Positions 25,067 to 62,243 of a DNA stretch of 64,000 nucleotides are shown here, piece after piece. The notes beneath the pieces are model-generated. The model had not been told where the DNA came from, ran no database searches, and saw nothing but the letters and a program-made list of their open reading frames with translations. Source of the stretch: Methylicorpusculum oleiharenae. Lineage in GTDB: Bacteria; Pseudomonadota; Gammaproteobacteria; Methylococcales; Methylomonadaceae. The position numbers and the translations under genes were made by a program. Positions within the stretch are counted from its first letter, which is position 1, and every line of letters begins with the position of its first letter. The stretch lies in the NCBI RefSeq assembly GCF_009828925.2, contig NZ_WUTY02000001.1, positions 1,828,492 to 1,892,491 of the forward strand, written 5' to 3'.

Positions 25067-25075
25067 GCCGCCCCC

Positions 25076-25638: not shown

Positions 25639-25677
25639 TAGAAAAGAGTTAAAAACTTTCTGTCACGATGTGGCACC

Positions 25678-29840: not shown

Positions 29841-29842
29841 CC

Positions 29843-37690: not shown

Positions 37691-37693
37691 TAG

Positions 37694-38001: not shown

Positions 38002-38017
38002 TGGCACTAAAAATGCA
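38002..38017 (+). promoter_or_regulatory. Sigma-54 promoter
   Basis: TGGCAC-TAAAAA-TGCA: GG-N10-GC spacing is exact, with TGGCAC at -24 and TGCA at -12. It is 74 bp ahead of the VPLPA-CTERM gene. PEP-CTERM genes are known sigma-54 targets in several proteobacteria. Confidence 0.7.
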
Positions 38018-38090
38018 AAAGTCAGGATAGAAGGCCTGTGGTTTCAGTCCTCAAAACTTTTTGGCTTACTTAGAAATTAAGGGTGATTTT

Positions 38091-38942
38091 ATGAAAAAAC
38101 TATATCAGTTAGCAGCATTAGCTTCGCTGACGTTGGTCGCAGGTCAGGCATCGGCGACGCTGGTCAACGGTAAGACGTCCGGGCAACCATCATCGGTGGT
38201 GTTAGGTGTAGTCGACCGGGATCAAAACAGCGCGAATTTTGGTTATACGTTTGTTGCCGATACCGGATTGAACTATTCCGACTTTGTTAATGGCAAAGTG
38301 ACTTCCGAGCAAAATTGGGACTTAACAAAAATACCCGCCTTCGCCAGTTTCATAGGCAGTACAAATCTTCAATATTCGATTGTGGGTGCTTACTCGTTAC
38401 AAGCTTCTGGTGCTACACGAAACTTGAATAGAGATGCCGCCACTTTTGGTGATCCTGCCGATACCCAATGGGGTGTAGTGACTTTAAGTCAGTCAGCGGG
38501 TGATTTTAATCTGGGAAAAAACAATCTTATTGAAGCTGCCGGCCAGCAAACCGGATCAACCGGCCGAGTTAATTCATGGATTAATGACATCTTATCTAAG
38601 GGAATTACCACTAACGGTGTCCTTGCACCTGAAGGAACGGATTCTTTCTTCGATCTTTACTTTACTCTAGGTTCAGCTTCTCTTTTTGCAAACCAAATCT
38701 TCAGTCTTGATGAAACTGCGCCGTTCTGGTGGATCAGCGACCCAAATATCGGAACTTCCAATGCGCTACCTAAAATTGCTCAAGAATTGTGGTCGTTTAA
38801 GCTGACCAGTGATTATCAATTGGCTTACGCACCCGCACCTGCTGCAGTGCCTTTGCCAGCCGCCGTCTGGCTTTTCGGAACGGCGCTGGCAGGTTTATTG
38901 GGCTTGGGTCGCCGTAAAGCCGGACTGGCAACAGCCGCCTGA
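38091..38942 (+). CDS. VPLPA-type PEP-CTERM surface protein
   Basis: A 283-residue exported protein. I start it at the ATG at 38091 (AAGGGTG upstream); the in-frame ATG at 38061 is before any ribosome site and spoils the signal peptide. Signal peptide MKKLYQLAALASLTLVAGQASA. Mature part is Ser/Asn/Thr-rich beta protein without cysteines. The C-terminus has the exosortase tripartite signal: VPLPAAVWLFG, a hydrophobic helix, then GRRK. It would be cut and attached to exopolysaccharide or the envelope by an exosortase encoded elsewhere. First gene of the surface cluster. Confidence 0.85.
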   Translation: MKKLYQLAALASLTLVAGQASATLVNGKTSGQPSSVVLGVVDRDQNSANFGYTFVADTGLNYSDFVNGKVTSEQNWDLTKIPAFASFIGSTNLQYSIVGAYSLQASGATRNLNRDAATFGDPADTQWGVVTLSQSAGDFNLGKNNLIEAAGQQTGSTGRVNSWINDILSKGITTNGVLAPEGTDSFFDLYFTLGSASLFANQIFSLDETAPFWWISDPNIGTSNALPKIAQELWSFKLTSDYQLAYAPAPAAVPLPAAVWLFGTALAGLLGLGRRKAGLATAA

Positions 38943-38949
38943 TGTTCCA

Positions 38950-38971
38950 GGAGCGGAGTCAAGTCCGCTCC
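38950..38971 (+). terminator. Hairpin after the VPLPA-CTERM gene
   Basis: GGAGCGGA-GTCAAG-TCCGCTCC, 8-bp perfect stem followed by TTCTTCT. It may partly terminate or stabilise the 5' transcript so that the first gene is made in excess. Confidence 0.6.
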
Positions 38972-39035
38972 TTCTTCTATGAATTTCAGCCGGGCGCAAC
39001 GCTTCCGGTAACACAATCGCAAACGGAGTTTTACT

Positions 39036-40742
39036 ATGAAAACCAGCTTTTCTTTTAACAAGATTGCTACGGCAGTCGCTTTACTGGTGGGCGCCCATTC
39101 TGCGCAAGCCTTGACGCCCTGGACAGACGGTGCGCCGGATATCGTTATCTATACCTCGGGTGGCGCAGCGCAAGACAGAGCCATCGACTTGGCTGTAGAA
39201 AGTGCACTCGTTGAACCTGGAACTTCAGATTGGTTCAGTGACGTGACTTCAGCCACCGGGCAAAGGGGTTCGCGCTGGCGTACTTATTATTTCCGGGGTA
39301 AAAGCACGTTGGGTGCCGGTCTGGCTGGCGCCAAAATCGCGCTGGAGAAACGTTCTTACGGTGCTGCAGGTTACGGGGTTGTGCCGTTGTTGGCCAATAA
39401 CGGCAATGGACTCCCTTTGGAGCATTTGAACATCGTCGGTTTGCCTCAATCAGCGTGGACCTCCGATGGGTCTAAACGCTGGGTTGCCACGATCAATGCC
39501 GGTAATGCAACTACTTATTTGACCAAAGCCACTTCCGATGGCGGATTTTTAGGTGTAGACCCTGAAATTTTGCTGAAACCGGGTACTGAAAATTATCCCG
39601 AACAGGTCAATGAATTCACAACCGGTTCGCCGGAAGCGAATTGGCCGACAAACCTAAGAACCGTTCCAAGATCTGGTGCCAATGGCTTCAATGTCGTTGC
39701 GACCGGGGGGCTCGTTTACGGTATTGGTGTGACTCAAGACTTGTATAAGGTTTTACAGGCAGCTCAGGTAAAAGCCGGTAAATTGCCTGCCGACGTGGTC
39801 ATTGGCCGATACGACGACCGGAGCATTCCCAGTCTGAACAGAGATTTTCTGGGGTCTTTGCTAGCCGGAAAGATCAAGGCTTGGGACCAAGTCAAGATTG
39901 TCGACAAAACCGATGGTAATCAGGTCAAAAGCTTGACCGATCCAGACATCCTTGATGCTGCTGGCGTCGATGCACCTTACAAGGAGCAAGGCACCGGTGA
40001 GGAATTGACCCCTGTTGCGATAGGTCGTCGCAATCGTGGTGCAGCGATTGGTGCGGTTGCCTACGCCAAGCTACTGCACTACCCCGCGCTAAAAAGCACC
40101 AATATTCCGGCACCAACAACCGAAAATGATGCGGATGAAGAAGAGTTTACATTGCCCATTGCTAAATCACCCGGGGGCGTCAACGGCACCATCGCCTTGC
40201 TGACTGACTGGCAAAACGGTACCAATAATACCGGTTTTAACAACGTTCCGGACGGTGCAGGCTTTGCCAAACGCTGGGGCTTTGCAGTCAACAGTGGCGA
40301 CCGTAACGCCGGTGTGACGGCTAATGGAACCGGTGGCGAGCCTTGGCGTTATATCAAGATCGACGGATATGCGCCGACGTTGGCGAACGTGGCTTCAGGC
40401 TCTTATCCGTATTGGGCGGAAGGCGTGGTCTTGTACCGCAACTTCAAACCGTCTGATGCCCAATGGAGTTTGAAAACACGGGTATTGAAAGCCTTTGCCG
40501 ACGATTTGGGTAGCCCAACCATTGCTGCTGCCGCCAATGCCAACGCGAACCTGGCTTTCGGCCGTTCCGGCATCTTTGCCACAACCCGTGATCCGCGCGG
40601 CTTTACTTCTAGCATCCCCTTCAATGACAACAACCCTGTCGTGCCGTTTACACACAATAACGCCGGCATAACCAGTTTGGAAATCGTACCGGTCGTTGAT
40701 GAAAATGCGAACGATGGTTTTGTCAATGTCGAGTTGAGATAA
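39036..40742 (+). CDS. Secreted PstS-like (periplasmic-binding-fold) protein
   Basis: A 568-residue exported protein; signal peptide about residues 1-25 (VALLVGAHSAQALTPW). Several stretches recall PstS-type binding proteins: DIVIYTSGGAAQDRAIDLAV at the N-terminus, FLGSLLAGKIKAWDQVKI (compare PstS IFLGKITNWND) and IGAVAYAKLL. It is longer than PstS, has long Asn/Gly-rich inserts and no ABC permease beside it. It could bind an anion or small ligand, or serve a structural role. CGGAG lies 7 bp before the ATG. Lies between the CTERM gene and the exporter. Confidence 0.6.
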   Translation: MKTSFSFNKIATAVALLVGAHSAQALTPWTDGAPDIVIYTSGGAAQDRAIDLAVESALVEPGTSDWFSDVTSATGQRGSRWRTYYFRGKSTLGAGLAGAKIALEKRSYGAAGYGVVPLLANNGNGLPLEHLNIVGLPQSAWTSDGSKRWVATINAGNATTYLTKATSDGGFLGVDPEILLKPGTENYPEQVNEFTTGSPEANWPTNLRTVPRSGANGFNVVATGGLVYGIGVTQDLYKVLQAAQVKAGKLPADVVIGRYDDRSIPSLNRDFLGSLLAGKIKAWDQVKIVDKTDGNQVKSLTDPDILDAAGVDAPYKEQGTGEELTPVAIGRRNRGAAIGAVAYAKLLHYPALKSTNIPAPTTENDADEEEFTLPIAKSPGGVNGTIALLTDWQNGTNNTGFNNVPDGAGFAKRWGFAVNSGDRNAGVTANGTGGEPWRYIKIDGYAPTLANVASGSYPYWAEGVVLYRNFKPSDAQWSLKTRVLKAFADDLGSPTIAAAANANANLAFGRSGIFATTRDPRGFTSSIPFNDNNPVVPFTHNNAGITSLEIVPVVDENANDGFVNVELR

Positions 40743-40913
40743 GCAAGATGCCAGGGTCTCTTTCATCTCGCAGAGTGACATTGCAATCATTTGACGAGTC
40801 GATGCTGATGAACATGAAAGGATACCGGAGTAAACAATGAACTAGGGAAATTACTTTAATCATGGATGTGTCGGGTGTTTGTGTATAAGCAATTATCCGG
40901 CAAAAAAAAGTTG

Positions 40914-40943
40914 AAATCCCGGTGGTTTAACCCTCCGGGATTT
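40914..40943 (+). terminator. Hairpin in the exporter leader
   Basis: AAATCCCGG-N12-CCGGGATTT, 9-bp perfect stem, between the PstS-like gene and the exporter start at 40992. No strong T run follows, so it could be a weak terminator or RNA-stability element. It also argues against starting the exporter at 40866. Confidence 0.5.
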
Positions 40944-40991
40944 CGGCATTTTACGAACTATCAAATTTTATTTTGGAATGACAAACAATCG

Positions 40992-42611
40992 ATGAATCGA
41001 TTCGTGCCCGCAGTTTTGATAATGAGTAGCTTTGTTTTGAGCACCGCCCCCGTATTTTCACAGGAGCCTGATTCGAATCAAGAAGATGCCTCCAACCCGC
41101 CGACGAGTGAGGAAGCTTTCGACTTGATGGTACTGCAGGTCGACGGAAATACAGTACTGGATCAACAAGTGATAGAAAAAACCGTTTACCCCTTTCTTGG
41201 ACCCGGTAAGTCAATAGACGATGTCGAAAAAGCGCGTCAGACACTGGAAGAAAAATACCGCGAACAGGGATATCCGACTGCGCTGGTTGAAATTCCGGAA
41301 CAGGATGTCGTAGACGGCTTGGTCCGTCTCAACGTCGTCGAAGGTTCGATCGAGCGCTTGAAAATAACCGGCTCGCGTTATTACTCCTTGGGCAGTATTC
41401 GCGAAAAAGTACCCTCGTTGACCAAAGGGCAGGTGCCGTATATGCCAGCCGTGCAAGAACAGATTAGCGCATTGAGTGAGGAATCGGCTGACCGAAAAGT
41501 AACGCCGATCTTCCGGGCGGGATCAACACCTGGAAAAACCGAGGTTGAATTGCGTATCGATGATGAACTGCCGTTACACGGCAGCGTCGAGCTCAACATC
41601 AACAATCCGGAGAGTACGACCCGGCCTCGGGTGATCGGATCGATACGGTATGACAACTTATGGCAGAAATTTCACAGTGCCTCGCTGCAGTATCAGGTCT
41701 CACCGGAAAATCCGGACGAAGTCGATGTATGGTCAGGAACTTATGTCATGCCCACTGGTTTGTTTGATACCCGTTTGGCTTTCTACGGCGTCGGCATCAG
41801 TTCCAATACCGAGTTGGGTGCTTCTCTGGGCGGCCTGTCGGTAATCGGCACCGGGACGATCTTTGGTGCAAGGCTGGTCAAACCGCTGGCAACCATGGAC
41901 ACCTATCATCACAGCGTTACTTTGGGGTTCGACCACAAAAGCTTCGATCAAGGCGTGACGGCTCAGGGACAAGACCTGGATTCAACGCCAATTACTTATG
42001 CCCCGTTTCAAGTCGGGTATGACGGCAGTTGGCGGGGTGACGCCTATCTGACTACGCTGAATACGGCGCTCAACTTTTCTATCCGAGGCCTGGGCAACGA
42101 GCAAGAGGAGTTTGAGAATCGGCGTTTCAAGGCCCAGTCCAATTACACTTACTTGACGACTACTGTCAGACACTTGCACGAACTACCCAAGGATTTCAGA
42201 TTTGCAGGCCGCCTTGCAGGGCAAAAAGCCGATTCACCTCTGATCAGTAACGAGCAATTTTCAGCGGGGGGGCAGCAAAGCGTGAGAGGTTACTATCAAA
42301 CTCAGCAGTTGGGTGATGATGGTTTTAATTTATCGATTGAGTTTCAAACGCCGATTCTGAAACAAGAGGACTGGGACTTTGTACAAAATTTAAGGGCCCA
42401 TATATTTTTTGATTATGCCTATTTATGGATTCAGAGCCCGTTGCCTCTCAATCCTACACATTACAAGTTGGCCGGGAGTGGCGCAGGTTTCAGGATGCAG
42501 TTGTTCAAGCATTTCGTAGGGGAATTTGATTGGGCATATCCCTGGTACCAACAGAGTACGGTCGATGTAGGCAATCAACGTGTCGATTTTCGGCTTGCTT
42601 ACGAGTTCTAG
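40992..42611 (+). CDS. Two-partner secretion exporter (FhaC/ShlB/TpsB family)
   Basis: A 539-residue outer-membrane transporter; start at the ATG at 40992, giving a signal peptide MNRFVPAVLIMSSFVLSTAP...VFS. Two POTRA domains follow (about residues 50-200; FDLMVLQVDGNTVLDQQVIE, then YREQGYPTALVEIPEQDV and RLKITGSRYYSLGSI). The remaining ~330 residues form the 16-strand barrel with the L6 motif QQSVRGYYQTQQLGDDG, the VRGY lid conserved in all TpsB proteins, and a C-terminal aromatic strand RVDFRLAYEF. It exports the exoprotein encoded 34 bp downstream. Confidence 0.95.
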   Translation: MNRFVPAVLIMSSFVLSTAPVFSQEPDSNQEDASNPPTSEEAFDLMVLQVDGNTVLDQQVIEKTVYPFLGPGKSIDDVEKARQTLEEKYREQGYPTALVEIPEQDVVDGLVRLNVVEGSIERLKITGSRYYSLGSIREKVPSLTKGQVPYMPAVQEQISALSEESADRKVTPIFRAGSTPGKTEVELRIDDELPLHGSVELNINNPESTTRPRVIGSIRYDNLWQKFHSASLQYQVSPENPDEVDVWSGTYVMPTGLFDTRLAFYGVGISSNTELGASLGGLSVIGTGTIFGARLVKPLATMDTYHHSVTLGFDHKSFDQGVTAQGQDLDSTPITYAPFQVGYDGSWRGDAYLTTLNTALNFSIRGLGNEQEEFENRRFKAQSNYTYLTTTVRHLHELPKDFRFAGRLAGQKADSPLISNEQFSAGGQQSVRGYYQTQQLGDDGFNLSIEFQTPILKQEDWDFVQNLRAHIFFDYAYLWIQSPLPLNPTHYKLAGSGAGFRMQLFKHFVGEFDWAYPWYQQSTVDVGNQRVDFRLAYEF

Positions 42612-42645
42612 TTTTAGCGGATTTCGATTCTGCAAGAGGTTCACC

Positions 42646-45600
42646 ATGACAAACAACCTGTTATTCATTCCTTTTTTACCGGTTAGCCGTCCCAAGCCGC
42701 TGGCTTCAGCAGTACGTGCCTTGATAGCCGGTGGACTGGTGCTGGGAGTTGGCTTGGATGAGGTTCGTGCAGAACTGCCTATCCCTTTGAATGTTTCGGC
42801 CCTAGCCTCGCAGGGACAAGCGGCAGCGCAGGTCAATGGTAATACTATGACCATTAAACAAAGCACAGACCGGGCAACCCTGCAGTGGCAAAGTTTCAAT
42901 ATCGGCGCGCAAAATAGTGTGCATTTTGATCAACCGTCGGCATCTTCGATTGCACTGAACAATATTCACCAGGCCGACCCCAGCCGGATCATGGGATCTC
43001 TAAGTGCCAACGGACAGATCTATCTGGTCAATCAAAACGGTTTCGTCTTCGGCAGAAATTCCCAAATCAATGTTAATTCGTTGGTTGCCACGACATTGGG
43101 TATCACCGATGAAACTTTTGAACGGGGCATCACTAAAGTCTTCGATATCAATAATGCCGCAGCTTTGGAACGCAACAACGGGGAACTTTATTTAAGAAAT
43201 GATCAGGGGCAGTTTGTGCTTGATCAGAACGGGGAAAAGGTCAAAATTCAGATTTTTATCGAAGCGGGTGCGCAAATCAAAACCAACGCGCCCGGTGGAC
43301 GGGTCATCATTGCCGCGCCGGTCGTGACGAATGCCGGCACTGTTGAAACTCACGACGGACAAACCTTGTTGGTTGGCGCTCAGGATAAAGTTTATTTGCA
43401 GGAAGCGGGTGCCGATTCGGATGTCCGCGGCTTGGTGGTCGAGGTCGGTAAAGGCGGTAAAGTCGATAATATCGGCAAGGTCATTGCCGAACGCGGTAAT
43501 GTCAGCCTCATCGGTTTTGCCGTCAATCAACAAGGTATCGCATCTGCAACGACCTCGGTCCGATTAAACGGCACAGTCAGATTATTGGCTCGCGAAGGCA
43601 TACGAGATCCGATCGCTACCGGCGGTCGACTGTTGGGTAATACGACCAAACGCAACACCGACTTGGGTGATGGTTTGGGAACCAGTGCAACGGTCAATCT
43701 TGCCGAGAACAGCCTAACCAGTGTCAATTTGGATGCCGACAAATCGGCTACCGCTATCGATGCACAACCCCAACTCAAATCCAGAATAGAAATCAGCGGG
43801 CATAAGGTAATTTTACGGCAAGACTCGACGGTACAAGCACAATCGGGAACGGTCGATATCGCGGCACTGGACAATTTGGCTGATCCGACGATTCGCGGCG
43901 ATGCCAGAATCTACATGGAGAAAGGCAGCAAGATAGATGTGTCCGGCGTCAAGAATGTCAGCAAGGCAATGGAAAGCAATGTTGTCGAGGTGGAACTGCG
44001 CAAAAACGAATTACGTGATGCACCGCTACAGCGTGATGGCGTGTTGTTTGCCGAAAAGGTCAAGGTCGATCTGCGTGACGCCAATCTGGTTTATGACCCT
44101 GATAGCGGTGAGTTGATCAGTGCAACGATACCGGTTGCTGACATCAAAGGCGCAGTCGACAGGATTGCCCGCAACATAGACGAAAGAAGCACAGATGGGG
44201 GTACCATCAATCTGACTTCCAGCGGCGATGTGGTGACTCGCCCAGGGAGCTTGCTGGACTTTTCGGGTGGGTCGGTTGCTTACCGGGATGGCTTTGTCGA
44301 AACGACCAAACTGGTTTCCGACGGACTCATTTTTGATATTTCAAAGGCCGATCCGAATCGTCGATACGACAGCATACTCGGTCAGTTCGTCAAGATTTAT
44401 CCGAAGTGGGGCATAACCGAGCGTTGGTCAATTAATGGCTTGTCGCTCAAACGCTTCGAAAAAGGTTATGTCGAAGGTAAAGATGCTGGTCAATTGCGAA
44501 TCACTGCCTATGAAAGTTTGCTGGACGGTGCGTTGAATGGTCAAACGATTATGGGTCCTTTACAGAGAACCCCCGATCAGAGAGCGTTGGGCAGTTTGTT
44601 TACGCTCAACCTCAGTAATGGTAATGTCTTCGGTAGGCAAAACATTGTTTTCAATCATCTTGCTGCGATCAACTCATTGGATGCTGACGATGCCTTTCCT
44701 CGAAACAACGATGGGTCGGGTGAGTCGGCGACTTTGAATCTTGCGGCTGATTTATTCAAAAACGCAGGCATTCATCGCGTTGATATCACCACTAACGGTT
44801 CAGTTCGAATAGTTGAGGGTGCGCGGATTGAGTTGCCGGTAGATGGCAGTCTACATTTGGCCGCCTCAGGATTCGACCTGCAAGGCTCGATCATCTCACC
44901 GTCCGGCGAGGTCAGACTGCATCCGACTGTCATTGATGAAATCAATTCACCCAGTTCAATTGTATTGGGTGCCAATGCCGTCATCGATGTCAGCGGCCAG
45001 TGGGTCAACGATTTGTTGGCCGTCAGTCAAGGCCGGGCATTGGGCGTGGTATCCGTGGCTGGCGGCACGGTGTCCTTAGTTGCTGAACAAGGCGATCTGC
45101 ACTTGTCAAGTGGGAGTCGCATCGATGTCAGCGGCGGGGCCTGGCTTAAAAATAAAGCAAAGGTCGAGGCAGGCCATGGCGGTGCCATCGAATTGGTAGC
45201 CGCTACCACGTTATCCGGCGGAGCCGCTGCGAATCTGATTTTGGACGGCGAGTTGTCCGGTTGGGCGCTCTATCACGGCGGCAGTCTCAGCTTGAGCGCC
45301 AACGAGGTTGTGATTGGTTCGGCAATTGATGCACCGGTTCGGCCTGTTTCCGCATATCAACCGTTGATTCTGTCGCCTGAATTCTTCCAGCAAGGAGGAT
45401 TTTCCGATTACAGCGTGACGGCAAATCTATACGGCTTGAAAGTAGCTGACAACGTTCAATTAAAGCCTGTTCAAAAGAACTTACAGTTGGATTCGGAAGC
45501 CTTTTTACAACACACTGGCGCTGATTTGAAAAGCTTTGCAGCCAAAGTCACGTTGCCCGAACAGTTTCGCTCACCGACTCATTTGACGCTGTCCCTGGCG

Positions 45601-51600: not shown

Positions 51601-53139
51601 ATTTCGTTGCTGCCGGGCATTTTGCGTCCGGCGGTCCAGCTTGAAGGCAGCTTGAATGATGGCATTTTCAGAGCACGGGAACGTCTCGATCCCGCCAATC
51701 CGTTCCCGAATATCGTGCATGCGTCGACTCCGTTGCACGTAAATAACCCGCTCAGACCGCTGATTATCGCAAATCAAGGTGATATCGGATTTTCGTCCGA
51801 TACCGAAGTCACCTTCTTTTTACCCAAGGCTGCGACACTTCAAGCGGGTAGAGATATTCTCAATGTTGCTGTGAACAGCCAGAATCTGGCGGCGAACGAT
51901 ATCACCCTGATTCAAGCTGGCCGCGATATCGTCTTCGATACGGTCATGAACGACGATGGGAATATTCTTTCCAACATCAGGAAGTTTCAGCTTGGGGGAC
52001 CCGGCGAGTTGCAGGTTTTGGCCGGTAGAAATATCAATCTCGGCAGCGCCGAAGGCATTCAGACGATAGGCAATTTATTCAATTCGTCATTGAGTGTGAC
52101 GGGGGCGGGAATCAATATCCTGACCGGTTTGGACGGCACGCTCGATTATGCGGGTTTTGTCGACAAATACCGCTCCGTGCCCGAATACAGTGAGTTGCTC
52201 TCCAGTTTGGAAGGTTTAAGCGACCAGGAACTGCGCGTTAATCAGCAAACGCTATTAAGGATCTTTTTCAATGAATTAAAAGAGTCTGCCAGCGCTGCCG
52301 CTGCAGTCGACGAGTCGCAACGCGCCGCATTATACCAGCGCGGTTTCGATGCGGTAAAAGCCTTGTTTCCGGATGAATCGTATCAGGGCGATCTTCGCCT
52401 TGTATTCAGCCAGGTTAAAACCCTTGCCGGAGGCGATATCAATCTGGCGGTGCCCGGCGGCGATATCGATGTCGGCTTGGCGGGGCAATTAGCCGGTATT
52501 CGTAAAACGGCCGATCAATTGGGTATTGTCGTACAGCAGTTGGGAAACCTGAGTGCGTTTGTTAAAGGTGATTTCAGTGTCAATCAGTCGCGGGTCTTTA
52601 CCTTGCGCGGTGGCGATATTCTGGTGTGGTCATCCGAAGGCAGCATAGATGCCGGAAAAGGTGCCAAGTCTGCTATTTCCGCCCCGCCTCCGATATCGGT
52701 CATAGATGCGAAAGGTAACGTCGTAACGATTTTTCCGCCGATTGTCTCAGGTAGCGGTATACAAGCGATAGGTGATGGACAAGTGACATTGGCCGCACCC
52801 TTCGGGATTGTTGATGCCGGTGAGGCGGGTATCAGCGGAGGGCGCATAGTGATTGCTGCCACTGCCGTAATCGGGGCTTCAAATATTCAAGCTTCTGGCG
52901 GTACCGTCGGAGTACCCACGACGGTTTCTGTTCCTGTGGCGATCTCCGGGGTCGATGGTGCTGCAACCAGCGCCGCGCAATCCGCTTCACAATCGGCTAG
53001 CGGTGATGGTTCGAGTCAGGAGGCTAATAATGCGGACGGATCAACGACAGCAGTCAGTATGCTCAGTGCCGACGTGGTCGGTTACGGTGAATGCAGTGTC
53101 GGGGATATTCGCGAAGGTAAAGCCGGTTGCGGCGGTTAA
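42646..53139 (+). CDS. Filamentous-haemagglutinin-like exoprotein (TpsA)
   Basis: About 3,497 residues from the ATG at 42646 (AAGAGG upstream); the frame is open 66 bp further but overlaps the exporter. An N-terminal extended signal region precedes the TPS domain (about residues 40-170), with QWQSFNIGAQNSVHFDQP, ALNNIHQADPSRIMGSL and NQNGFVFGRNSQINVNSLV, the NPNG-type secretion motifs. The rest is repetitive parallel beta-helix: repeated V/I-D-V-S-G and A-G-G-x-I/V units. Near the end ISAPPPISVIDAKGNVV is typical of DUF3739-type haemagglutinins. There are only two cysteines, GECSVGD...KAGCGG, at the extreme C-terminus. It should form a long fibre on the surface. Confidence 0.93.
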   Translation: MTNNLLFIPFLPVSRPKPLASAVRALIAGGLVLGVGLDEVRAELPIPLNVSALASQGQAAAQVNGNTMTIKQSTDRATLQWQSFNIGAQNSVHFDQPSASSIALNNIHQADPSRIMGSLSANGQIYLVNQNGFVFGRNSQINVNSLVATTLGITDETFERGITKVFDINNAAALERNNGELYLRNDQGQFVLDQNGEKVKIQIFIEAGAQIKTNAPGGRVIIAAPVVTNAGTVETHDGQTLLVGAQDKVYLQEAGADSDVRGLVVEVGKGGKVDNIGKVIAERGNVSLIGFAVNQQGIASATTSVRLNGTVRLLAREGIRDPIATGGRLLGNTTKRNTDLGDGLGTSATVNLAENSLTSVNLDADKSATAIDAQPQLKSRIEISGHKVILRQDSTVQAQSGTVDIAALDNLADPTIRGDARIYMEKGSKIDVSGVKNVSKAMESNVVEVELRKNELRDAPLQRDGVLFAEKVKVDLRDANLVYDPDSGELISATIPVADIKGAVDRIARNIDERSTDGGTINLTSSGDVVTRPGSLLDFSGGSVAYRDGFVETTKLVSDGLIFDISKADPNRRYDSILGQFVKIYPKWGITERWSINGLSLKRFEKGYVEGKDAGQLRITAYESLLDGALNGQTIMGPLQRTPDQRALGSLFTLNLSNGNVFGRQNIVFNHLAAINSLDADDAFPRNNDGSGESATLNLAADLFKNAGIHRVDITTNGSVRIVEGARIELPVDGSLHLAASGFDLQGSIISPSGEVRLHPTVIDEINSPSSIVLGANAVIDVSGQWVNDLLAVSQGRALGVVSVAGGTVSLVAEQGDLHLSSGSRIDVSGGAWLKNKAKVEAGHGGAIELVAATTLSGGAAANLILDGELSGWALYHGGSLSLSANEVVIGSAIDAPVRPVSAYQPLILSPEFFQQGGFSDYSVTANLYGLKVADNVQLKPVQKNLQLDSEAFLQHTGADLKSFAAKVTLPEQFRSPTHLTLSLAQLLAQNRQESLTIGQGSLIKTGLEGTVTLNSDTSIFIDGTIDTPAGHIVATIKPPAAGDSGFFASQGIWLGPDSRLSARGGFKPSLNAFGLTTGDVLNGGTVELIANRGYIVSYAGSTIDVSGTAQVLDFLQPGSRALSRTIPSGAGSIVMKAGEGILTDGSFIAVKGGEGAKGGALTLEINRGLRDKPEFPVGDGLFPDDIIANRNRPRSIVISAGSNRVISDTLRPGDVISTPDYNGLALLKSSQLNNSGFSALTLKTDVLGADGQYQGSIRFDGDVTLTTAGKIVLDTPSIQTDSSKVTLNTAYAVLGSTMSRLDTQINQGEFSTILAPEARGGEGVFSVQAKGIDLVGGLSFNGFNQANLNSVGDIRAVGIRIRNDTKDFLGELKLAGDLTISAAQLYPSTLTRYTFSVENNGTNTITISNSGGTPGPVYSAGGNLTFAAPNIIQRGVVKAPFGTLTFNAQNTLELVPGSLTSVAGNGLTVLFGRGSGGMSWLYPITADGSVNLVIDEPPEKRLTLTGRDVLLQDGANIDLAGGGDLYAYEFIPGPGGSRDLLDASQPDFVEKFAVLPALGSALTPYDPLEFPSSDLHVGDSVYLAGSAGLSAGWYKLLPARYALLPGAFLVTPRAGNQDMLPNQSFVDFAGVTVVAGRYGAPAAGIEDARWQGFAVEPGSVARTYSEFADYSANTFFADKARLNGTLAPQLPDDAGTLAIAAQASLTLAANLSAAPVANGQGGQVDISADRLAVVGRRVDLTSSAPGTVTLWAEDLNNLNAPSLLLGGLRSKDKKGQRITVTTQTLTVDGDSQLSGAEIILAAKDALTLKSGSAIESTGSNNANGIDLLIENRTLGNEPENSDGALLRVSAAGQIDVIRDKTVTGNTGILTVEAGARLSAKGSMLLDASQNTVFDGDIDMQGGSLALKSRRISIGAVPDNTPGLVLSSTQFNLDELRLISATDFDIYGSVDVSTRQLILGAANINGFNNQGGNASITAEHITLLGGGATADRIGTGTGLLSFNARDIELGSGSYAIQGFSQVDFNATGGILGAGQFTDATGSAISAPGYLRVAGNLGLNAGTLSGGHGATTTIDASGYRVDITSPGTVDTERPPIGLGVKWTIVANDIVSTGGHFDLPSGILELTSLTGDISLNSGTHIDVAGRVIQFADHYRYSPAGTVQLTSNLGNINLADGTSINLRGAGLVGDTQGSNAQQASNAGSLKVSAAQGSFQWLGLIDAGSGGFAEPQLRQGSFSLDVDTFGVGGFSLLNDKLAEAGFAEELRLRQRNGDVMITDSDSVKAKRFDLTLDQGQVSIDGRIDVSGAEGGVVDIYGRNGIVLGANGAIDARAMTPGGEGGRVKLDTVHRDAAGSGLLDLSAQGGSINVSAGANGSGGSVHLRTGRDADGSVAVTAINSAIIGSEPFRTALEATRTFIPAAGIITASDISNWKADTASFMSISHAPVNLSGADIQLLPGLEISSVGDLTLQDKWDFMDGSWNTVTQSWVSNWRYADATGNKSLPGFLTLRSSGDLNIAASLTDAFATAPIPGGNQNQRFQDMLQPGLSWSYQLIAGGDVKLSSSYMGPNPLSSNPNNLVKTQVMVRTGTGDIRIDANGDISFLKDANDAKAAAAVYTMGSPAKFTRAQLIAGIPEAPARNPGETDIDYLNRLVPDAMDELMRYGYFNSPQLGLQFLLAEYPTEGGSIDLRAGGDIEGIMTGQKITDWLVKSGAFDINGRPTAWGININGVRSGAVNIGGGISVFPKSVHFFNQNVGALGGGHVTVDAGGDVRDLSVMMPTTGKPFGKFGANLTTWSENGTVINGGGNLHVNAGNDIVGGEYYVGLGSGKLQAGGSIAQAASGLGVLLNLGDGIYDLQARRDLNLASVLNPTALRQIQLPPGGGSDSRFFSYSGSSAVNLAATAGNIVLQNDVAGIKRVKNLLNDSESGFEYAIYPGTLKASAYAGDIRINNAMTLFPSTQGQLELLAQNNFGADLNSAKLFSINMSDTDISLLPGILRPAVQLEGSLNDGIFRARERLDPANPFPNIVHASTPLHVNNPLRPLIIANQGDIGFSSDTEVTFFLPKAATLQAGRDILNVAVNSQNLAANDITLIQAGRDIVFDTVMNDDGNILSNIRKFQLGGPGELQVLAGRNINLGSAEGIQTIGNLFNSSLSVTGAGINILTGLDGTLDYAGFVDKYRSVPEYSELLSSLEGLSDQELRVNQQTLLRIFFNELKESASAAAAVDESQRAALYQRGFDAVKALFPDESYQGDLRLVFSQVKTLAGGDINLAVPGGDIDVGLAGQLAGIRKTADQLGIVVQQLGNLSAFVKGDFSVNQSRVFTLRGGDILVWSSEGSIDAGKGAKSAISAPPPISVIDAKGNVVTIFPPIVSGSGIQAIGDGQVTLAAPFGIVDAGEAGISGGRIVIAATAVIGASNIQASGGTVGVPTTVSVPVAISGVDGAATSAAQSASQSASGDGSSQEANNADGSTTAVSMLSADVVGYGECSVGDIREGKAGCGG

Positions 53140-53327
53140 GTTTTAAGCAATACCGGTCGCTGTAATGCGCTGCGGTTATTAGTGTGACAGGTGATATAGG
53201 TCAAAACCTCTATTGCCTTAAGGAGGTGCCTAAATTTGATCAGTGACTAGGATAGAAACTCACAAATCAACGGCGTTTACGTAGTTTAAAGCTCAAATAT
53301 AATTTTTAACGTGGGAATAAAAAATTG
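53140..53327. other. Intergenic gap before the energy-transducer genes
   Basis: 188 bp. Contains AAGGAGGTG at 53219-53227 with no gene behind it and imperfect symmetry ATAGGT-CAAAA-CCTCTAT at 53198-53215. No terminator is evident, so readthrough from the exoprotein gene is possible. Confidence 0.35.
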
Positions 53328-55139
53328 ATGACCAAAAACTTATTGCGCCGGATCAAGTTCGGCCTTGCTCTATTGTTAATCCCGGTAGTGGCGCACGCCT
53401 GGTGGAATGACAGCTGGCCGTCGCGCAAACAATTGACAGTGGATGCTTCTGCTACCGGCGCCGATATTCAGGAGACGCTCAATGAGTTTCCGGTCTTGGT
53501 GCGTTTACATGCCGGCAATTTCGGATTCTTTTTCGATTTGGCAGAAAATGGCAAAGATCTGCGTTTTATGCTGGACGATAAGACTGCGCTCAAACATCAC
53601 GTCGAAAAAATCGATGCACTGACCGAATTGGGTTTGGTTTGGGTCAAGCTGCCTGTCGTTCGGGGTGGTGTCGGCACCGACGGCTTTGCCATGTACTATG
53701 GAAACGCCAATGCCGCGGATGGCTCCGATCCGAAAGGTATTTACGATGTCAATCAATCGTTGGTGTTCCATTTTGCCGAAGGCGAAGTATTACCTCTGGA
53801 TGCCACTGCCTATGGCGTCAATGCGGCAGAGTCGAAAGCATCTATCGATAATGCGGGGTTGATTGGAGCAGCGGCGAAATTTGACGGTCAGGGTGGGATT
53901 ACTGTCAATGCGAATCCAGCCTTAGAGCTCAACGTTGATAATGGCTTTACCTTCAATAGCTGGGTCAAGTTCGATCAAAATCAGGCCAATGCCACTTTGT
54001 TTAAGGCCCAGGATGATAAAATCCTGGTTAGATTGGTCCTTCAGGATGCTTCGATCAGTGCGAACTATCAAGTGACAGGGGGCCCATTGGCCCAAACTGC
54101 TGGCGTCAATCTAACTCCAGGTCAGTGGCATCATATTGCTTTAGTGCTTCAGAAAGAGGCTCTTCAGTTGTATGTCGACGGTCAATCGGTCGCGCAAATC
54201 AGCATTCAACTGGTCGGTGCCAACCCCGCCTTGCTGATCGGTGACGCATTTTCCGGTTGGCTGGATGAAGTGCAGGTCGCCAAACAGGCACGGACTCCCG
54301 ATTGGCTCAAATTACAATTTCGCAGCCAAAGCCCCGATCATAATGTGCTTAATTTCGGTCAGGATGAATCGGCCGGGGCAGCTTCAGGACCAAACTATGC
54401 CTTAACCATTCTGCAAAGTCTGACTACTGACGGTTGGGTGGTCATTGGCTTATGTGGGGCGATGTTGGTGATGAGCTTGCTGGTCATGTTCACCAAGGGT
54501 TTTGCTCTTAGGCGTGCCCAACAGGATAACATTGCTTTTTTAAAGCAATACCGGAGAGTCGAAACGGGCGATTTGGAGTCATTAGACCGAGACGAGACCG
54601 AAGAAGAGCAGGAACTTGAGGAATCCGAATTTCTGAAAACCTTGCTGGGTGAGCATGATCACTTTCAAAGCTCGCCGATTTACCATGTCTATCATGCCGG
54701 CGTTCAAGAGTTGAAAAAACGCTTGGGGGATAAGCAATCTAACTCGACTTTGAGTGTGGAAGCACTGAATGTCGTGCGGGCACGCCTGGATGCTGCCGTC
54801 GTTCAGGAATATCAAAAGCTGAACAAAAACATGGTATTGCTGACCATTGCTATTTCTGGAGGACCCTTTTTAGGTCTATTCGGGACGGTCATGGGTGTCA
54901 TGATTACCTTTGCGGTGATTGCGGCAACAGGCGATGTCAATATCAACACCATTGCGCCGGGTATTTCAGCGGCCCTGGCTACAACGGTTGCCGGGCTTTT
55001 GGTGGCGATTCCAACGCTTTTTGCCTACAACTATTTGTTATCCCAGGTCAAGACACTGACCGCCGATATGCGCATATTCACCGATGAGTTTCTGGCCGTT
55101 GTGTCGGAACGTATCGCCGACCGCAATAGAGGAGAATAA
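53328..55139 (+). CDS. DUF2341-LamG-ExbB/TolQ fusion protein
   Basis: A 603-residue three-part protein. Signal peptide MTKNLLRRIKFGLALLLIPVVAHA. Residues about 25-130 are DUF2341 (WWNDSWPSRKQLTVDASATG, FAMYYGNANA). About 160-345 are a LamG/concanavalin-like fold (FTFNSWVKFDQ, GQWHHIALVLQKEALQLYVDG, LLIGDAFSGWLDEVQVAKQ). A membrane helix at about 370-390 and the MotA/TolQ/ExbB domain follow, with ISGGPFLGLFGTVMGVMITF and ISAALATTVAGLLVAIPTLFAYN. So an extracytoplasmic carbohydrate- or protein-binding domain is joined to a proton-channel subunit. ExbD is encoded 3 bp on. Confidence 0.9.
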   Translation: MTKNLLRRIKFGLALLLIPVVAHAWWNDSWPSRKQLTVDASATGADIQETLNEFPVLVRLHAGNFGFFFDLAENGKDLRFMLDDKTALKHHVEKIDALTELGLVWVKLPVVRGGVGTDGFAMYYGNANAADGSDPKGIYDVNQSLVFHFAEGEVLPLDATAYGVNAAESKASIDNAGLIGAAAKFDGQGGITVNANPALELNVDNGFTFNSWVKFDQNQANATLFKAQDDKILVRLVLQDASISANYQVTGGPLAQTAGVNLTPGQWHHIALVLQKEALQLYVDGQSVAQISIQLVGANPALLIGDAFSGWLDEVQVAKQARTPDWLKLQFRSQSPDHNVLNFGQDESAGAASGPNYALTILQSLTTDGWVVIGLCGAMLVMSLLVMFTKGFALRRAQQDNIAFLKQYRRVETGDLESLDRDETEEEQELEESEFLKTLLGEHDHFQSSPIYHVYHAGVQELKKRLGDKQSNSTLSVEALNVVRARLDAAVVQEYQKLNKNMVLLTIAISGGPFLGLFGTVMGVMITFAVIAATGDVNINTIAPGISAALATTVAGLLVAIPTLFAYNYLLSQVKTLTADMRIFTDEFLAVVSERIADRNRGE

Positions 55140-55142
55140 GTC

Positions 55143-55547
55143 ATGTTATTTGGCGAAGACGATAAAGTTTACGATGATATCAACGTTACACCCATGCTCG
55201 ATGTGGCTTATGTTTTGGTGATCATCTTCATCATCATGACGACTGCGACCGTTCAGGGGATAACCGTCAATCTGCCCAAGGCCAGCAGCACCCCCGCATT
55301 GAGCAAACCCAAAACCAAAGCGATCTCAATAGCTCAGGACGGCACGATTTATCTGGATACTTATCCAGTTTCGATCCTGGAATTGGAAACCCGGCTGGGT
55401 CAATACAAAGCGGCCAATCCAGATTTGCCGGTCGTTTTAAAAGCCGATGCAGCGATTCAATACGAAAAAGTCATTGAAGTACTGGATGTGGTTACACGCC
55501 TTGAAATCAGTCAATTGGGACTGGTGACTCAAAAACTGGTCAAATAA
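55143..55547 (+). CDS. exbD: ExbD/TolR-family proton-channel subunit
   Basis: A 134-residue protein with a single helix (MLDVAYVLVIIFIIMTTATVQ) preceded by INVTPMLDV, which carries the conserved proton-relay Asp. The C-terminal periplasmic domain of about 80 residues (KAISIAQDGTIYLDTYPVSI) is of normal ExbD length. It should form the stator with the preceding ExbB-like fusion. GGAG lies 8 bp before the start and it is 3 bp after the upstream stop, so translation is coupled. Confidence 0.93.
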   Translation: MLFGEDDKVYDDINVTPMLDVAYVLVIIFIIMTTATVQGITVNLPKASSTPALSKPKTKAISIAQDGTIYLDTYPVSILELETRLGQYKAANPDLPVVLKADAAIQYEKVIEVLDVVTRLEISQLGLVTQKLVK

Positions 55548-55553
55548 TTTCCC

Positions 55554-56219
55554 ATGGATAAGCGTAAGCGATTACTGCGGTATCTGCCGCTGGGGGTCGG
55601 TTTTGTCCTGACTTTACTGTTGGCGATTGCGCTGTATGTCATTCAAGGCAAATTCGAAAAGCCTGTGCAGCAGAAAAAGCAAATTCAGCAAATTACGATG
55701 ATTCAACCACCGCCACCTCCACCCCCGCCGCCAGAAGTCAAACCGCCGGAACCGGAGCCTGAAAAAATTGAGGAACCTGAGCCGGAAGAAGAGCCCGAGC
55801 CTTCACCGGAAGAATCTGAAGAGCCGGCAGGGGAAGAGTTAGGCCTGGATGCCGAAGGCGGCGCGGGTGCGGATGGGTTTGGTCTGGTTGGCAAAAAAGG
55901 CGGACGCGGATTGTTGGGCGGCGGCGGTGGTAGCGCAATTCTTTGGTATGGCGGTCAGGTAAAACGCGGTCTGGAAGAGGACTTGCAGAGCTTGTTGGCC
56001 GGAACCAGCGCCAGAAAAAGCCGTTACACCGTCCAACTCAATATATGGGTTGGTCCCGATGGGCGAGTCAAGCGGGCGGAATTGGCCGGTACTAGCGGCA
56101 AAAAAGAGGTGGATAGCGCGATAGAGGCTGTGTTGCCGAAGTTGAACTTCTCTGTGAATAAGCCACCGCCGGAAAATATGCCGCAACCTTTGAAGATTCG
56201 GGTTACCTCCAGAATATGA
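55554..56219 (+). CDS. TonB-like energy transducer
   Basis: A 221-residue protein with the TonB plan: a membrane anchor (residues about 9-30, LPLGVGFVLTLLLAIALYV), a Pro-rich span starting with nine consecutive prolines and turning to Glu/Pro repeats (about 51-95), a Gly-rich segment, and a C-terminal domain (about 135-221: YTVQLNIWVGPDGRVKRAELAG...KIRVTSRI). This matches the TonB_C fold. It probably spans the periplasm and passes energy from ExbBD to an outer-membrane partner. It ends in an ATGA overlap with the porin gene. Confidence 0.88.
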   Translation: MDKRKRLLRYLPLGVGFVLTLLLAIALYVIQGKFEKPVQQKKQIQQITMIQPPPPPPPPPEVKPPEPEPEKIEEPEPEEEPEPSPEESEEPAGEELGLDAEGGAGADGFGLVGKKGGRGLLGGGGGSAILWYGGQVKRGLEEDLQSLLAGTSARKSRYTVQLNIWVGPDGRVKRAELAGTSGKKEVDSAIEAVLPKLNFSVNKPPPENMPQPLKIRVTSRI

Positions 56220-58114
56220 GCAAAAAAATTATGAATAGAGTACCGGTAAATACGATAACGATTGTAAAAAAGTCAGCGTTCTTAGTGCTGGCAAGTTCTC
56301 TTTTTACCCCGGTTATGGCGGATGAAAAAGATGAGCTTCTGAAACTGAAAAGCAAAATGGCAGCTGAGAAAGAAGAGCTTTTGAAACTCAAAAATACCAC
56401 AGTCAATTTAATGGACTTACTCGTCCAGGAAGGTGTTCTCGATAAAAAGAAAACCGAGAGTCTGATCAAAGCAGCTGAAGATAAGGCGGCAATCGAGGCC
56501 AAACAACAGATTGCTCAGGAAACGACTGAAGAACTCGAAGAGACCAGGCCAGCAAACGCTGCACCGGCATTGCCTGCCAAACAAAATGGCTCGGTGTATG
56601 TGGGTTATGTTCCGGAGTTTGTCAAGGAAGAGATTCGTCAACAGGTCCGCGCCGATCTGAAAGATGAAGTGGTTAAGGAAGTCAAGGCGGATGCCAAGGA
56701 GGAACTCTGGGGTATCCCCGCTGCGTTACCTGATTGGGTGAGCCGCATGCACTTTACGTTCGATTCGCGTTTTCGCTTCGCCAACGATTTTTTCGATAGT
56801 GAGAACGCACCTTATCTCGATTATTTGTCGATCAATAAAGATGGCGGCAATCTGGCTGCATTTAATCGTAATGAAGAATTTTTGAATACCACCAAGGATG
56901 ATCTGCGTCTGAGCCAGCGCTTTCGGGCCGGCTTGAACCTGGATATCACCGAAGGCGTCAAAGCCGGAGTGCGGGTTGGGACCAGTAATATTCGTAATCC
57001 GGTGTCGAACGAACAAACATTGGGTAATACCGGTGAATCCTTCGAGTTTGCGGTCGATAGGGCTTACATCCAGTATGATTTTATCGATGAGCAGGGTAAA
57101 GACTGGTTCAGTCTTTATGCCGGGCGTTTTGCGAATCCCTGGCTCTCTACCGATGTGTTGTATGATCCCGACTTGAGTTTTCAGGGCTTTGCCGGAACCT
57201 TTCGTTACCGTTTCAATCAGAACAGCGTGAATGTGCGCTCGTATCGAGCGGCGATGACCAACGACCTGGGCGGACGGGCCGGAGTCAATTTTGGGCCGCA
57301 GACGCCGGATTCGGTTTTCGCGACGCTGGGTATCTTCCCCATCGAGGAAATCAATCTATCGGTAAAGGATAAATGGTTGCTGGGTGGGCAGTTGGGTGCG
57401 GACTGGCTGGTATACGGCCAAAATAGACTCAAAGTTGGGGCCGCTTATTATCATTATCGCAATACCCGGGCACGAGCCAATACGCGTAACAGTTTTGAAT
57501 ACGACTGGACCGCGCCAGAGTTCATCCAGAAAGGCAATACGATGGTGCCGATCAATATCAACGAGGGCAACGACCTGGCGGGTAATCCGTTAAATAGCCG
57601 GTGTACGGATGCAACGACCAAGCTTCCTGGTGATGCCTGCTTGTGGGGTCTGGCTTCTGATTTCAATATTTTCAATGCCACGATGATCTACGATTATTCC
57701 GGCTTCGAGCCGGTGCACGTGATGCTGACCCTGGATTACGCCAAAAATCTCGGCTATGACGAGTCTAGAATTCGGAAAGAGTTCGGTGATCGTCTCGATC
57801 CGGATAAAAGTTTCGCAGGAAAAACCAATGCGTTCCAAGTCCGGCTCGATGTCGGCGATCAGGATGTTGTCAAATTCAATGATTGGAACCTTTTCTGGGC
57901 TTACCGCTATATCCAGCGTGATGCCGTACTCGATGCATTTACCGAGTCGTTGTTCCACGCAGGCGGCACCGATGCGAAAGGCTGGTGGTTAGGCGCGAAT
58001 TACGGATTGGCCAAAAATACGTGGGTCAATCTCCGTTGGAGCAGCAGCGATGCAATCGATGGCCCACCGTTAAGTATCGATACCGGTGCGGTTGATCTGA
58101 ATGTCCGTTTTTAA
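56216..58114 (+). CDS. Putative outer-membrane porin with N-terminal coiled coil
   Basis: A 632-residue exported protein. A long signal sequence (residues about 1-36, ending SSLFTPVMADE) precedes a charged coiled coil (DELLKLKSKMAAEKEELLKL and EAKQQIAQETTEELEETRPA), then a beta barrel of about 440 residues with alternating strands (MHFTFDSRFRFANDFFDS, FSLYAGRFANPWLSTDVLYD) and an aromatic C-terminal strand ending VDLNVRF. It fits the putative-porin (Porin_5-like) family. Its start overlaps the TonB-like stop, and no TonB-box plug is recognisable, so how it couples to TonB is open. Confidence 0.85.
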   Translation: MSKKIMNRVPVNTITIVKKSAFLVLASSLFTPVMADEKDELLKLKSKMAAEKEELLKLKNTTVNLMDLLVQEGVLDKKKTESLIKAAEDKAAIEAKQQIAQETTEELEETRPANAAPALPAKQNGSVYVGYVPEFVKEEIRQQVRADLKDEVVKEVKADAKEELWGIPAALPDWVSRMHFTFDSRFRFANDFFDSENAPYLDYLSINKDGGNLAAFNRNEEFLNTTKDDLRLSQRFRAGLNLDITEGVKAGVRVGTSNIRNPVSNEQTLGNTGESFEFAVDRAYIQYDFIDEQGKDWFSLYAGRFANPWLSTDVLYDPDLSFQGFAGTFRYRFNQNSVNVRSYRAAMTNDLGGRAGVNFGPQTPDSVFATLGIFPIEEINLSVKDKWLLGGQLGADWLVYGQNRLKVGAAYYHYRNTRARANTRNSFEYDWTAPEFIQKGNTMVPININEGNDLAGNPLNSRCTDATTKLPGDACLWGLASDFNIFNATMIYDYSGFEPVHVMLTLDYAKNLGYDESRIRKEFGDRLDPDKSFAGKTNAFQVRLDVGDQDVVKFNDWNLFWAYRYIQRDAVLDAFTESLFHAGGTDAKGWWLGANYGLAKNTWVNLRWSSSDAIDGPPLSIDTGAVDLNVRF

Positions 58115-58130
58115 GGGTGGAAGGTGTTCG

Positions 58131-58811
58131 ATGGTGATGCGTTTGGGTAAACCGGTCTTGTGTTGTGCGATGAGCTTGATGTTGAATCTCCCGATCGCGC
58201 ATGCCCAAGCGGTCAAGCAAAGCGGTGCTGCCGATCAGGCACTGAGAAAAGCGCAAGGGATGCTGCGCCAATTGACACAGGAGAAAGCCACATTGGAGGC
58301 TGAAAAAACGGCGGCTCTGGAACAGGTGGGCAAGTTAGAAAATGTCATCAGACAACTGGAGCCCTTGCAAGGCGAAATTGAACGTTATCGGGCCGGTGTG
58401 GAGTCTTTGGAAAGGGTTAGCAGCTCTTTGCAGGGGCAATTGGTCAGCGCCAAAGAGAGAGAACAAAAACTTTTGCAGCAACAAAAAACAATCATTGCCC
58501 AGGCCCGGCAAATTCAAAGCGATAACCAGCTATTGGTCGCAGCAGTCAAGGAACGTGAGCGTTGGATAGCCGAATGCAGCACTAAAAACACTCAATTGAT
58601 TGAAGCTAATCTGGAATTGGTGGAAAAGTACAAGGCCAAAGGATTTTGGCAAAAACTGGGCGAATTGGAACCCTTTACCGGGATTGCCACGGTTGACACT
58701 GAAAATGCCGTTGAAAGTTACCAGTTCAAATTGGAAGACTTGACTGTGACCGAGTTTCAAGAGACTCAAAATTCAGAAGAGGGGACAGAAGAAGCAGTTG
58801 CTGATGAGTGA
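58131..58811 (+). CDS. Periplasmic coiled-coil protein
   Basis: A 226-residue protein started at the ATG at 58131, which has GGAAGGTG upstream, instead of an ATG inside the porin gene. Signal peptide VLCCAMSLMLNLPIAHAQA. Residues about 30-165 are one long coiled coil (LRQLTQEKATLEAEKTAALE, VGKLENVIRQLEPLQGEIERY, RVSSSLQGQLVSAKEREQKL) ending in IAECSTKNTQLIEANLELVEKY. An acidic tail closes it. Last gene of the cluster; a bridging or scaffold role in the periplasm is an inference from shape. Confidence 0.75.
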   Translation: MVMRLGKPVLCCAMSLMLNLPIAHAQAVKQSGAADQALRKAQGMLRQLTQEKATLEAEKTAALEQVGKLENVIRQLEPLQGEIERYRAGVESLERVSSSLQGQLVSAKEREQKLLQQQKTIIAQARQIQSDNQLLVAAVKERERWIAECSTKNTQLIEANLELVEKYKAKGFWQKLGELEPFTGIATVDTENAVESYQFKLEDLTVTEFQETQNSEEGTEEAVADE

Positions 58812-62124: not shown

Positions 62125-62243
62125 CCGTTAACTTCTCAAGCTTGCGATTATCGCCAAGCGCTAGCAGCTAAATAACTAAAAAATGCGTCGCATCAGCGGC
62201 CCATACCCACACTCCATTACCATCAATACAATAGGAAACAACC

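Follow-up and report, generated by a model that had tools for sequence, protein, structure and literature searches.

DUF3739-type two-partner secretion genes, a stalked Porin_5 barrel and a dedicated ExbBD-TonB motor form one conserved gene unit in Methylicorpusculum oleiharenae and its relatives

Nine genes at positions 38091..58811 of a 64,000-nucleotide stretch of the Methylicorpusculum oleiharenae genome (contig NZ_WUTY02000001.1; the whole stretch is called the window below) encode a two-partner secretion (TPS) pair, the exporter TpsB and its giant exoprotein TpsA, followed by an ExbB fused to DUF2341 and LamG domains, ExbD, a TonB-like protein, a porin of the Porin_5 family and a coiled-coil protein, and preceded by a CTERM protein and a PstS-like protein. 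We found that these parts form one conserved unit, in which DUF3739 (the family at the C-terminal end of TpsA), Porin_5 and DUF2341-ExbB go together, and the pairing of DUF3739 with the motor and the porin is strict enough to suggest one machine. The system is real and widely conserved; it is known as a gene set, with its function undescribed in the open-access literature searched, and what is new here is the genome-wide linkage, a motif in the tail of TpsA and the OmpM1-like fold of the porin. According to the usual description, type V secretion draws no energy from the cell. Our tentative proposal, to which we give slightly less than an even chance, is that this TPS system has a dedicated envelope platform driven by the proton-motive force, on which the exported fibre would stay docked by its tail.

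The linkage was evident at the level of whole genomes. In a phylum sample of 398 genomes, 141 of which carry the TPS domain, we found Porin_5 in 20 (full-length in 14), DUF3739 in 14 and DUF2341 in 13. The genomes with full-length Porin_5 and those with DUF3739 are the same 14, and DUF2341 is present in 13 of them and in no other, the exception (G284) being a genome in which the locus starts inside ExbB at a contig end. These 14 genomes span eight families, and the chance of identical sets is 4e-26 if kinship is ignored, a figure that is too small given kinship. The six genomes with weak Porin_5 (G154, G237, G286, G310, G344, and G356) contain partial matches and were not counted as having the system; the stretches around the weak matches of G154, G237, G310, and G356 yielded no further protein of the operon. 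A second sample comprised 190 genomes of one family and overlapped with the first in the positives G019 and G379 and in one or more negatives. Full-length Porin_5 occurred in 21 of these genomes, all with DUF3739, whereas DUF3739 exceeded its cut-off in 22, the only one lacking Porin_5 being a 130-contig draft (G413); a twenty-third match, in G474, was below the family cut-off and was dropped. In 17 of the 21 genomes Porin_5 and DUF3739 lie within 6 kb of each other. When both samples are pooled, Porin_5 is missing from one of 34 DUF3739 genomes, the linkage of DUF2341 being established for the 398-genome sample only. The original prediction had proposed a search for co-occurrence of TpsA/TpsB with the motor genes as its check, and an absence of co-occurrence is excluded. 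Nor is the linkage merely one of neighbourhood, because G268, whose locus consists of TpsB, porin and coiled coil only, keeps ExbB-ExbD-TonB on a separate contig; the notion that this genome lacks the motor was accordingly rejected. The ratio of DUF3739 TpsAs to porins is 3:1 in G200 and G379 and 2:1 in G284, as expected of a platform serving exoproteins.

The gene order is similarly conserved. A profile scan of named genomes for relatives of the porin gave at least 578, of which we kept the best 80, dropping gene matches weaker than 1e-5 except those of the coiled coil. ExbB, ExbD and TonB precede the porin in this order, all on its strand, in 57 of the 57 relatives with at least 3.7 kb upstream; the coiled coil follows it in 76 of 77 with room for it, and among the 53 that have 9 kb or more ahead of the porin, 48 show a TpsA match there. 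Three Methylomonas loci (L134, L135, and L142) are rearranged, with the CTERM and PstS-like genes upstream of ExbB, TpsB downstream and TpsA on the opposite strand. In the phylum sample, the order TpsB-ExbB-ExbD-TonB-porin was found in 12 of the 14 full-length Porin_5 loci outside the host genome, and in G019 and G360 TpsA stands between TpsB and ExbB as it does in the window, G360 having two ExbD genes. The motor has the components of TonB energy transduction, ExbB, ExbD and TonB together with the membrane Asp of ExbD, which is intact in 79 of 79 operon proteins; two Thr residues of ExbB are present in 75 of 75, after three short proteins were dropped from 78. An alignment of 87 TonB proteins contains a strongly conserved Gly-rich motif ahead of the C-terminal domain (LGLDAEGGAGADGFGLVGKKGGRGLLGGGGG in the window, 55839-55931). 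Genes of the set also occur on plasmids: two Klebsiella plasmid records (L149 and L150) bear the ExbB-ExbD-TonB-porin genes, and a Leclercia plasmid (L154) has a solitary, diverged "putative porin" gene only. On a Methylomagnum plasmid (L151:106-23738), TpsA, TpsB and PstS-like genes lie opposite a porin gene, which is itself followed by cax and phoU, with no ExbBD-TonB annotated within the 41.6 kb shown, for which the gene table is incomplete.

In the window, the open reading frames (ORFs) and their domains are as follows.

38091..38942, +, PEP-CTERM/VPLPA-CTERM-like secreted protein (PEP-CTERM 16.9 bits against a cut-off of 20.7, floc_PepA 31.5 against 80, both sub-cut-off)
39036..40742, +, PstS-like (periplasmic-binding-protein-like) secreted protein (homologue L151:12283-13869 matches PBP_like_2)
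40992..42611, +, TpsB, ShlB/FhaC-type Omp85 exporter (ORF opens at 40866; likely start ATG 40992)
42646..53139, +, TpsA, filamentous-haemagglutinin-type exoprotein of ~3,500 amino acids (ORF opens at 42580; likely start ATG 42646)
42811..43545, +, TPS secretion domain of TpsA (PF05860; amino acids 78-322 of the ORF)
52609..52920, +, DUF3739, modelled as the last rungs of the TpsA beta-helix (PF12545, amino acids 3344-3447; AlphaFold2)
52921..53088, +, predicted disordered linker and motif of TpsA (predicted local distance difference test score, pLDDT, <50; amino acids 3448-3503)
53068..53088, +, conserved tail strand motif of TpsA, here ADVVGYG (family form ~SVEVLGFG)
53328..55139, +, ExbB with N-terminal DUF2341-LamG region (ORF opens at 53325, TTG)
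53547..53744, +, DUF2341 of the ExbB fusion (PF10102)
53886..54305, +, LamG/concanavalin-like domain of the ExbB fusion (PF13385)
55143..55547, +, ExbD (conserved membrane Asp present)
55554..56219, +, TonB-like protein ending in a TonB_2 domain (hydrophobic segment at the N-terminus, a stretch rich in Pro and Glu, the conserved Gly-rich motif)
56216..58114, +, Porin_5 (long N-terminal helices, modelled barrel of 16 strands)
58101..58811, +, secreted coiled-coil protein, presumably periplasmic

All nine ORFs were located on the same strand and in the order originally claimed, their starts were checked, and the tight ATGA or few-bp junctions attributed to the last five genes measure +3, +6, −4, and −14 bp between the listed ORFs. 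Scans against Pfam and NCBIfam identified ShlB and POTRA_2 in TpsB, the TPS domain and DUF3739 in TpsA, DUF2341, Laminin_G_3 and MotA_ExbB in a single chain, ExbD, TonB_2, and Porin_5 with 600 bits; the last protein gave matches of coiled-coil type only, all below cut-off. Two of the gene identities first proposed are weaker: the CTERM protein is sub-cut-off, and the PstS-like protein, which had no match of its own in Pfam, NCBIfam or the PDB by sequence or profile searches, is tentatively identified through a distant homologue (26% identity, 4e-20) that reaches 28.4 bits with PBP_like_2, against a cut-off of 27. Between tpsA and exbB there are ~185 bp with one promoter-like match inside, in a scan that overall was no richer than chance. 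Promoter and terminator scans near the locus gave counts no higher than chance in three of four cases, and 10 terminators were predicted in 37200-43000 where 7.0 were expected (standard deviation 2.7). The nine-gene arrangement itself is far beyond chance, given the 57 relatives with the same motor gene order and strand and a second copy in the genome.

That genome (5.85 Mb, three contigs) has two each of the Porin_5, DUF2341 and TPS-domain genes, all within two loci. Copy 2, at ~3,494,745-3,515,262 of contig C1 (G000), repeats the nine gene types of the window in unchanged order. For eight of the pairs the alignment covers much of the proteins, with identities from 26% (coiled coil) to 63% (ExbD) and 29% for the PstS-like pair, but the CTERM pair aligns over only 18 residues, at the sorting signal, outside which, judging by sequence, the two proteins may not be homologous; the CTERM counterpart of copy 2 clears the PEP-CTERM cut-off with 20.9 bits. 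Among the matches listed, the closest to the porin of copy 2 were from Methylomicrobium (97%) and Methylicorpusculum (94%), so the host is probably a methanotroph close to these genera. Two copies of the porin operon are also present in Methylomonas sp. LW13 (L078 and L134). The two kinds of copy may even be direct neighbours: in Methylomonas sp. SURF-1 a CTERM-, PstS- and TpsA-type set stands directly behind the TPR gene of the operon (L085:16756-21608). Copy 2 is followed on its 3′ side by genes for a TPR protein, a choice-of-anchor-I protein and PhoX, and then a phosphoesterase on the opposite strand. Near the start of the PhoX ORF there are three overlapping Pho-box-like matches (L004:7753-7791), and L004 as a whole has 12 such sites where 3.7 were expected, a count reached in 0 of 200 shuffles. 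The ExbB family is common in the host genome (15 matches, one of them below cut-off), so the motor of the operon is one of several.

TpsA and TpsB are a two-partner secretion (type Vb) pair: TpsA has the TPS domain (PF05860, 74.5 bits; TIGR01901, 75 bits) and its gene adjoins that of an ShlB-type partner, which matches PF08479 and PF03865 and, in the PDB, CdiB and FhaC. Beyond DUF3739 the exoproteins continue into a variable linker that leads to a strand-like motif, in many cases at the extreme C-terminus (LSVEVLGFGE, ISVDILGFGD, FTVRVLGFG), with the pattern ~[ST]V-x-V-[LIV]-G-[FY]-G. Of 54 TpsAs (11 of 65 having been dropped, mostly because they were cut by a contig or locus end), 46 have its strict seven-residue form within 90 residues of the C-terminus, and elsewhere in the same proteins it occurs only three times in 119,570 residues. 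Sixteen further TpsAs yielded it in 10 cases, or in 9 of the 15 that were strictly unseen, leaving out L167 (G324). Among TPS exoproteins without DUF3739 it was found in 0 of 18, two of the 20 controls (L169 and L177) having been dropped as their frames stayed open. Several tails have a second, similar copy of the motif (~VQVLGxG), including that of the Klebsiella counterpart (L149), which carries the tail motif as well. AlphaFold2 modelling of the 460 C-terminal residues of TpsA from the window (pLDDT 83) gave, for most of the chain, a confident beta-helix with a helical insertion, whereas a stretch with pLDDT <50 starts at the end of DUF3739 and takes in the motif; the last 16 residues reach ~55-69. 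Since this tail, predicted to be disordered, lies outside the confident fold, the motif is better read as a possible docking point than as part of the fold. The predicted helical insertion breaks the C-terminal beta-helix at amino acids 3190-3262 (window ~52147-52365) and could serve as a stop or a handle for export.

The window TpsB seems to have little sequence between signal peptide and POTRA. An N-terminal plug helix, H1, with its linker is named as a specific feature of TpsB proteins in a published description (PMC9355242). In 21 operon TpsBs the distance from the signal core to POTRA1 has a minimum of 6, a median of 22 and a maximum of 45 residues (12 in copy 2, 26 in the window), which would be short for H1 and a linker in several of them, the span being counted from the hydrophobic core and not from a cleavage site; no control TpsB for this comparison was found in the control loci.

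The AlphaFold2 model of the porin, built as a monomer, has N-terminal helices followed by 16 strands of at least 10 residues. Its nearest structure is the tether porin OmpM1 (13-17% identity), below which OprP/OprO, OprB, chitoporin and general porins were nearly tied in the structure comparison. An assignment of Porin_5 as an OprP/OprO-type phosphate porin was rejected on account of this near tie, and we claim no specificity. TonB-dependent transporters have a plug domain inside a 22-strand barrel, and the porin is not one of them by this measure, as its model has no plug and Pfam gives Porin_5 only. It shares with the stalked tether porin OmpM1 of Veillonella the 16-strand barrel and the helical stalk, here in a predicted monomer, but differs from it in that it has no SLH domain (Pfam to E 0.05) and in that it is set in an operon with ExbBD-TonB and TPS genes.

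The original prediction took the locus for an undescribed system, which does not hold for the gene set, already published as part of the PUMA3/Pdt regulon of P. aeruginosa (PMC2729926, PMC4971064, PMC7035377); as to the function of the cluster, we found no description in the open-access literature, where the term DUF3739 was not found either. According to the published accounts, the PUMA3/Pdt locus PA0674-PA0701 contains vreAIR, hxc, lapA, pdtA, and phdA-pdtB-exbB2-exbD2-tonB4-PA0696-PA0697 and following genes (PMC7035377, PMC4971064). The operon phdA-pdtB-exbB2-exbD2-tonB4-PA0696-PA0701 and pdtA are tied there to PhoB, the sigma factor VreI and low phosphate (PMC4971064, PMC7035377), and tpsB is co-transcribed with exbBD-tonB and the next genes, pdtA having its own promoter (PMC4971064). 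The same sources term the TonB system of PUMA3 "still uncharacterized", list no function either for PA0696, a putative outer-membrane porin, or for PA0697, which has structural homology to channel-forming colicins, and the link of PUMA3 genes to tpsA/tpsB, exbBD and PA0696 in other species was noted in 2009 (PMC2729926). Set against this published order, the window shares the block tpsB-exbB-exbD-tonB-porin-next gene, but in it tpsA separates tpsB from exbB, genes of the CTERM and PstS-like types lie upstream, and no vre, YbjN, PpiC or LysR genes were seen beside it (some by Pfam, others by reading). With no vreA-vreI-vreR among its neighbours, the locus is a relative of PUMA3 and not a PUMA3 locus. 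Much of the published order is found on the Klebsiella plasmid L149, with a gene annotated as a TonB-dependent receptor, a sigma factor, DUF4880, TpsA, TpsB, ExbB, ExbD, and TonB, continuing with a putative porin, a hypothetical protein, YbjN, a peptidylprolyl isomerase and LysR. Like HxuA/HxuB/HxuC of Haemophilus, as described, the locus pairs a TPS exoprotein with a TonB-energised outer-membrane protein (PMC5422565), but HxuC is a TonB-dependent transporter, whereas the window locus has an ExbBD-TonB of its own and a porin in which no plug is visible. Another methanotroph TPS, MCA2226-MCA2227 of Methylococcus capsulatus, has a haemagglutinin-like protein of 3,349 amino acids (PMC4257694); we compared it by its description only, and "TonB" occurs 0 times in the main text of that paper.

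How might these parts work together? In the mechanism that we tentatively favour, TpsB would export the giant TpsA fibre, whose DUF3739 rungs and disordered tail would remain on or within the outer membrane. The platform would dock the tail, bound by TonB or by the porin or coiled-coil partners, ExbBD would provide a proton-driven pull via TonB, and the periplasm would be bridged by the DUF2341-LamG domain of ExbB together with the porin's helical stalk. This pull would hold, tension or release the fibre and/or open the adjacent pore, during nutrient limitation, of which phosphate is the best-supported cue; we infer the binder of the tail, its location, the direction of the force and the physiological outcome alike. 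A common platform, a dedicated proton path, conservation of the free tail and, in three genomes, several TpsAs per porin make the TpsA-TpsB complex the most likely target of ExbBD-TonB, reached through the tail and from the periplasmic side. As TonB pulls inward, retention, tensioning or gated release fits better than an aid to export. Several points weigh against this mechanism. An inward-pulling TonB would not obviously help export, and related genomes inflate the co-occurrence. The position of Glu 176 of ExbB is Ala in 70 of 75 operon proteins and Gly in the other 5, so the operon ExbB is not classed as a classical ExbB. The 54 TpsAs in which the tail motif was counted also defined its pattern, which makes that count not independent, and six of the 16 further tails miss it (three VRVLGFG, VRVLSTG, VDVLGLY, and the clearly deviant L161). 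The likeness of the motif to the TonB box of TonB-dependent receptors is a putative one.

The main rival is nutrient uptake through the porin, in which TpsA would capture a phosphorus-bearing or other anionic ligand, ExbBD-TonB would drive its entry via the stalked porin and the PstS-like protein would bind it, a counterpart of HxuA/HxuB/HxuC with the porin replacing the TonB-dependent receptor. We regard this as possible, if on the unlikely side: the phosphate context favours it, but Pho boxes are not in excess in the window copy (14 with up to three mismatches, against 12.9 expected), a plug domain that TonB could move is absent from the porin model, the fold points to no substrate because its matches below OmpM1 are nearly tied, and several TpsAs per porin are not the simplest arrangement for a receptor. 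The tether porin as nearest fold and the additional coiled coil would suit a passive platform that does no more than anchor the fibre in the cell wall and the inner membrane, or that reports its occupancy to cell-surface-signalling genes, since sigma factor, FecR/DUF4880 and TonB/STN-type genes adjoin the copies on Klebsiella and Methylosinus plasmids. A pure tether, however, would need no intact proton path, yet the Asp of ExbD is invariant, no such signalling genes were seen among the neighbours of the window copy, and VreA reportedly seems unneeded for the activation of sigma VreI, according to the published account (PMC7035377), so we consider an anchor or sensor improbable. Somewhat more doubtful still is a split TonB-dependent transporter, in which the TpsB barrel, seemingly without its plug helix, would hold the disordered TpsA tail in or beneath it. 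The tail would serve both as plug and as TonB box and be pulled by the dedicated ExbBD-TonB; the secretion pore would thereby become a proton-gated route for import or retraction, and the fibre its receptor. Lastly, starvation genes might simply travel together with no physical coupling, as the promoter that pdtA is described as having in P. aeruginosa would allow and as one conserved regulon could bring about. We hold this to be very unlikely, for the linkage persists without vre genes, after the Methylomonas rearrangements and across two contigs, DUF2341 is never found without the rest in 398 genomes, and DUF3739 almost never without Porin_5 in the two samples.

Around the operon of the window, reading of the ORFs indicated a transposase-like gene adjoining it upstream (35363-36724), conjugation-module-like genes further upstream (~20373-30475), and, just 3′ of the operon, cysteine-synthase-like and serine-acetyltransferase-like genes. 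Next after these comes a gene whose product matches the SrpI-like shell protein of type 2A encapsulins with 350 bits, the three genes together lying at 60221-63161.

Taken as a family, the giant TPS proteins marked by DUF3739 nearly always go with a stalked porin and, in the 398-genome sample, with a proton motor, although their secretion route is described as energy-free. What has been a side question in P. aeruginosa, the role of exbB2-exbD2-tonB4 and PA0696, becomes testable in harmless methanotrophs, and the tail of TpsA is a defined peptide for binding tests. There are now working hypotheses for DUF3739, DUF2341-ExbB, and Porin_5.

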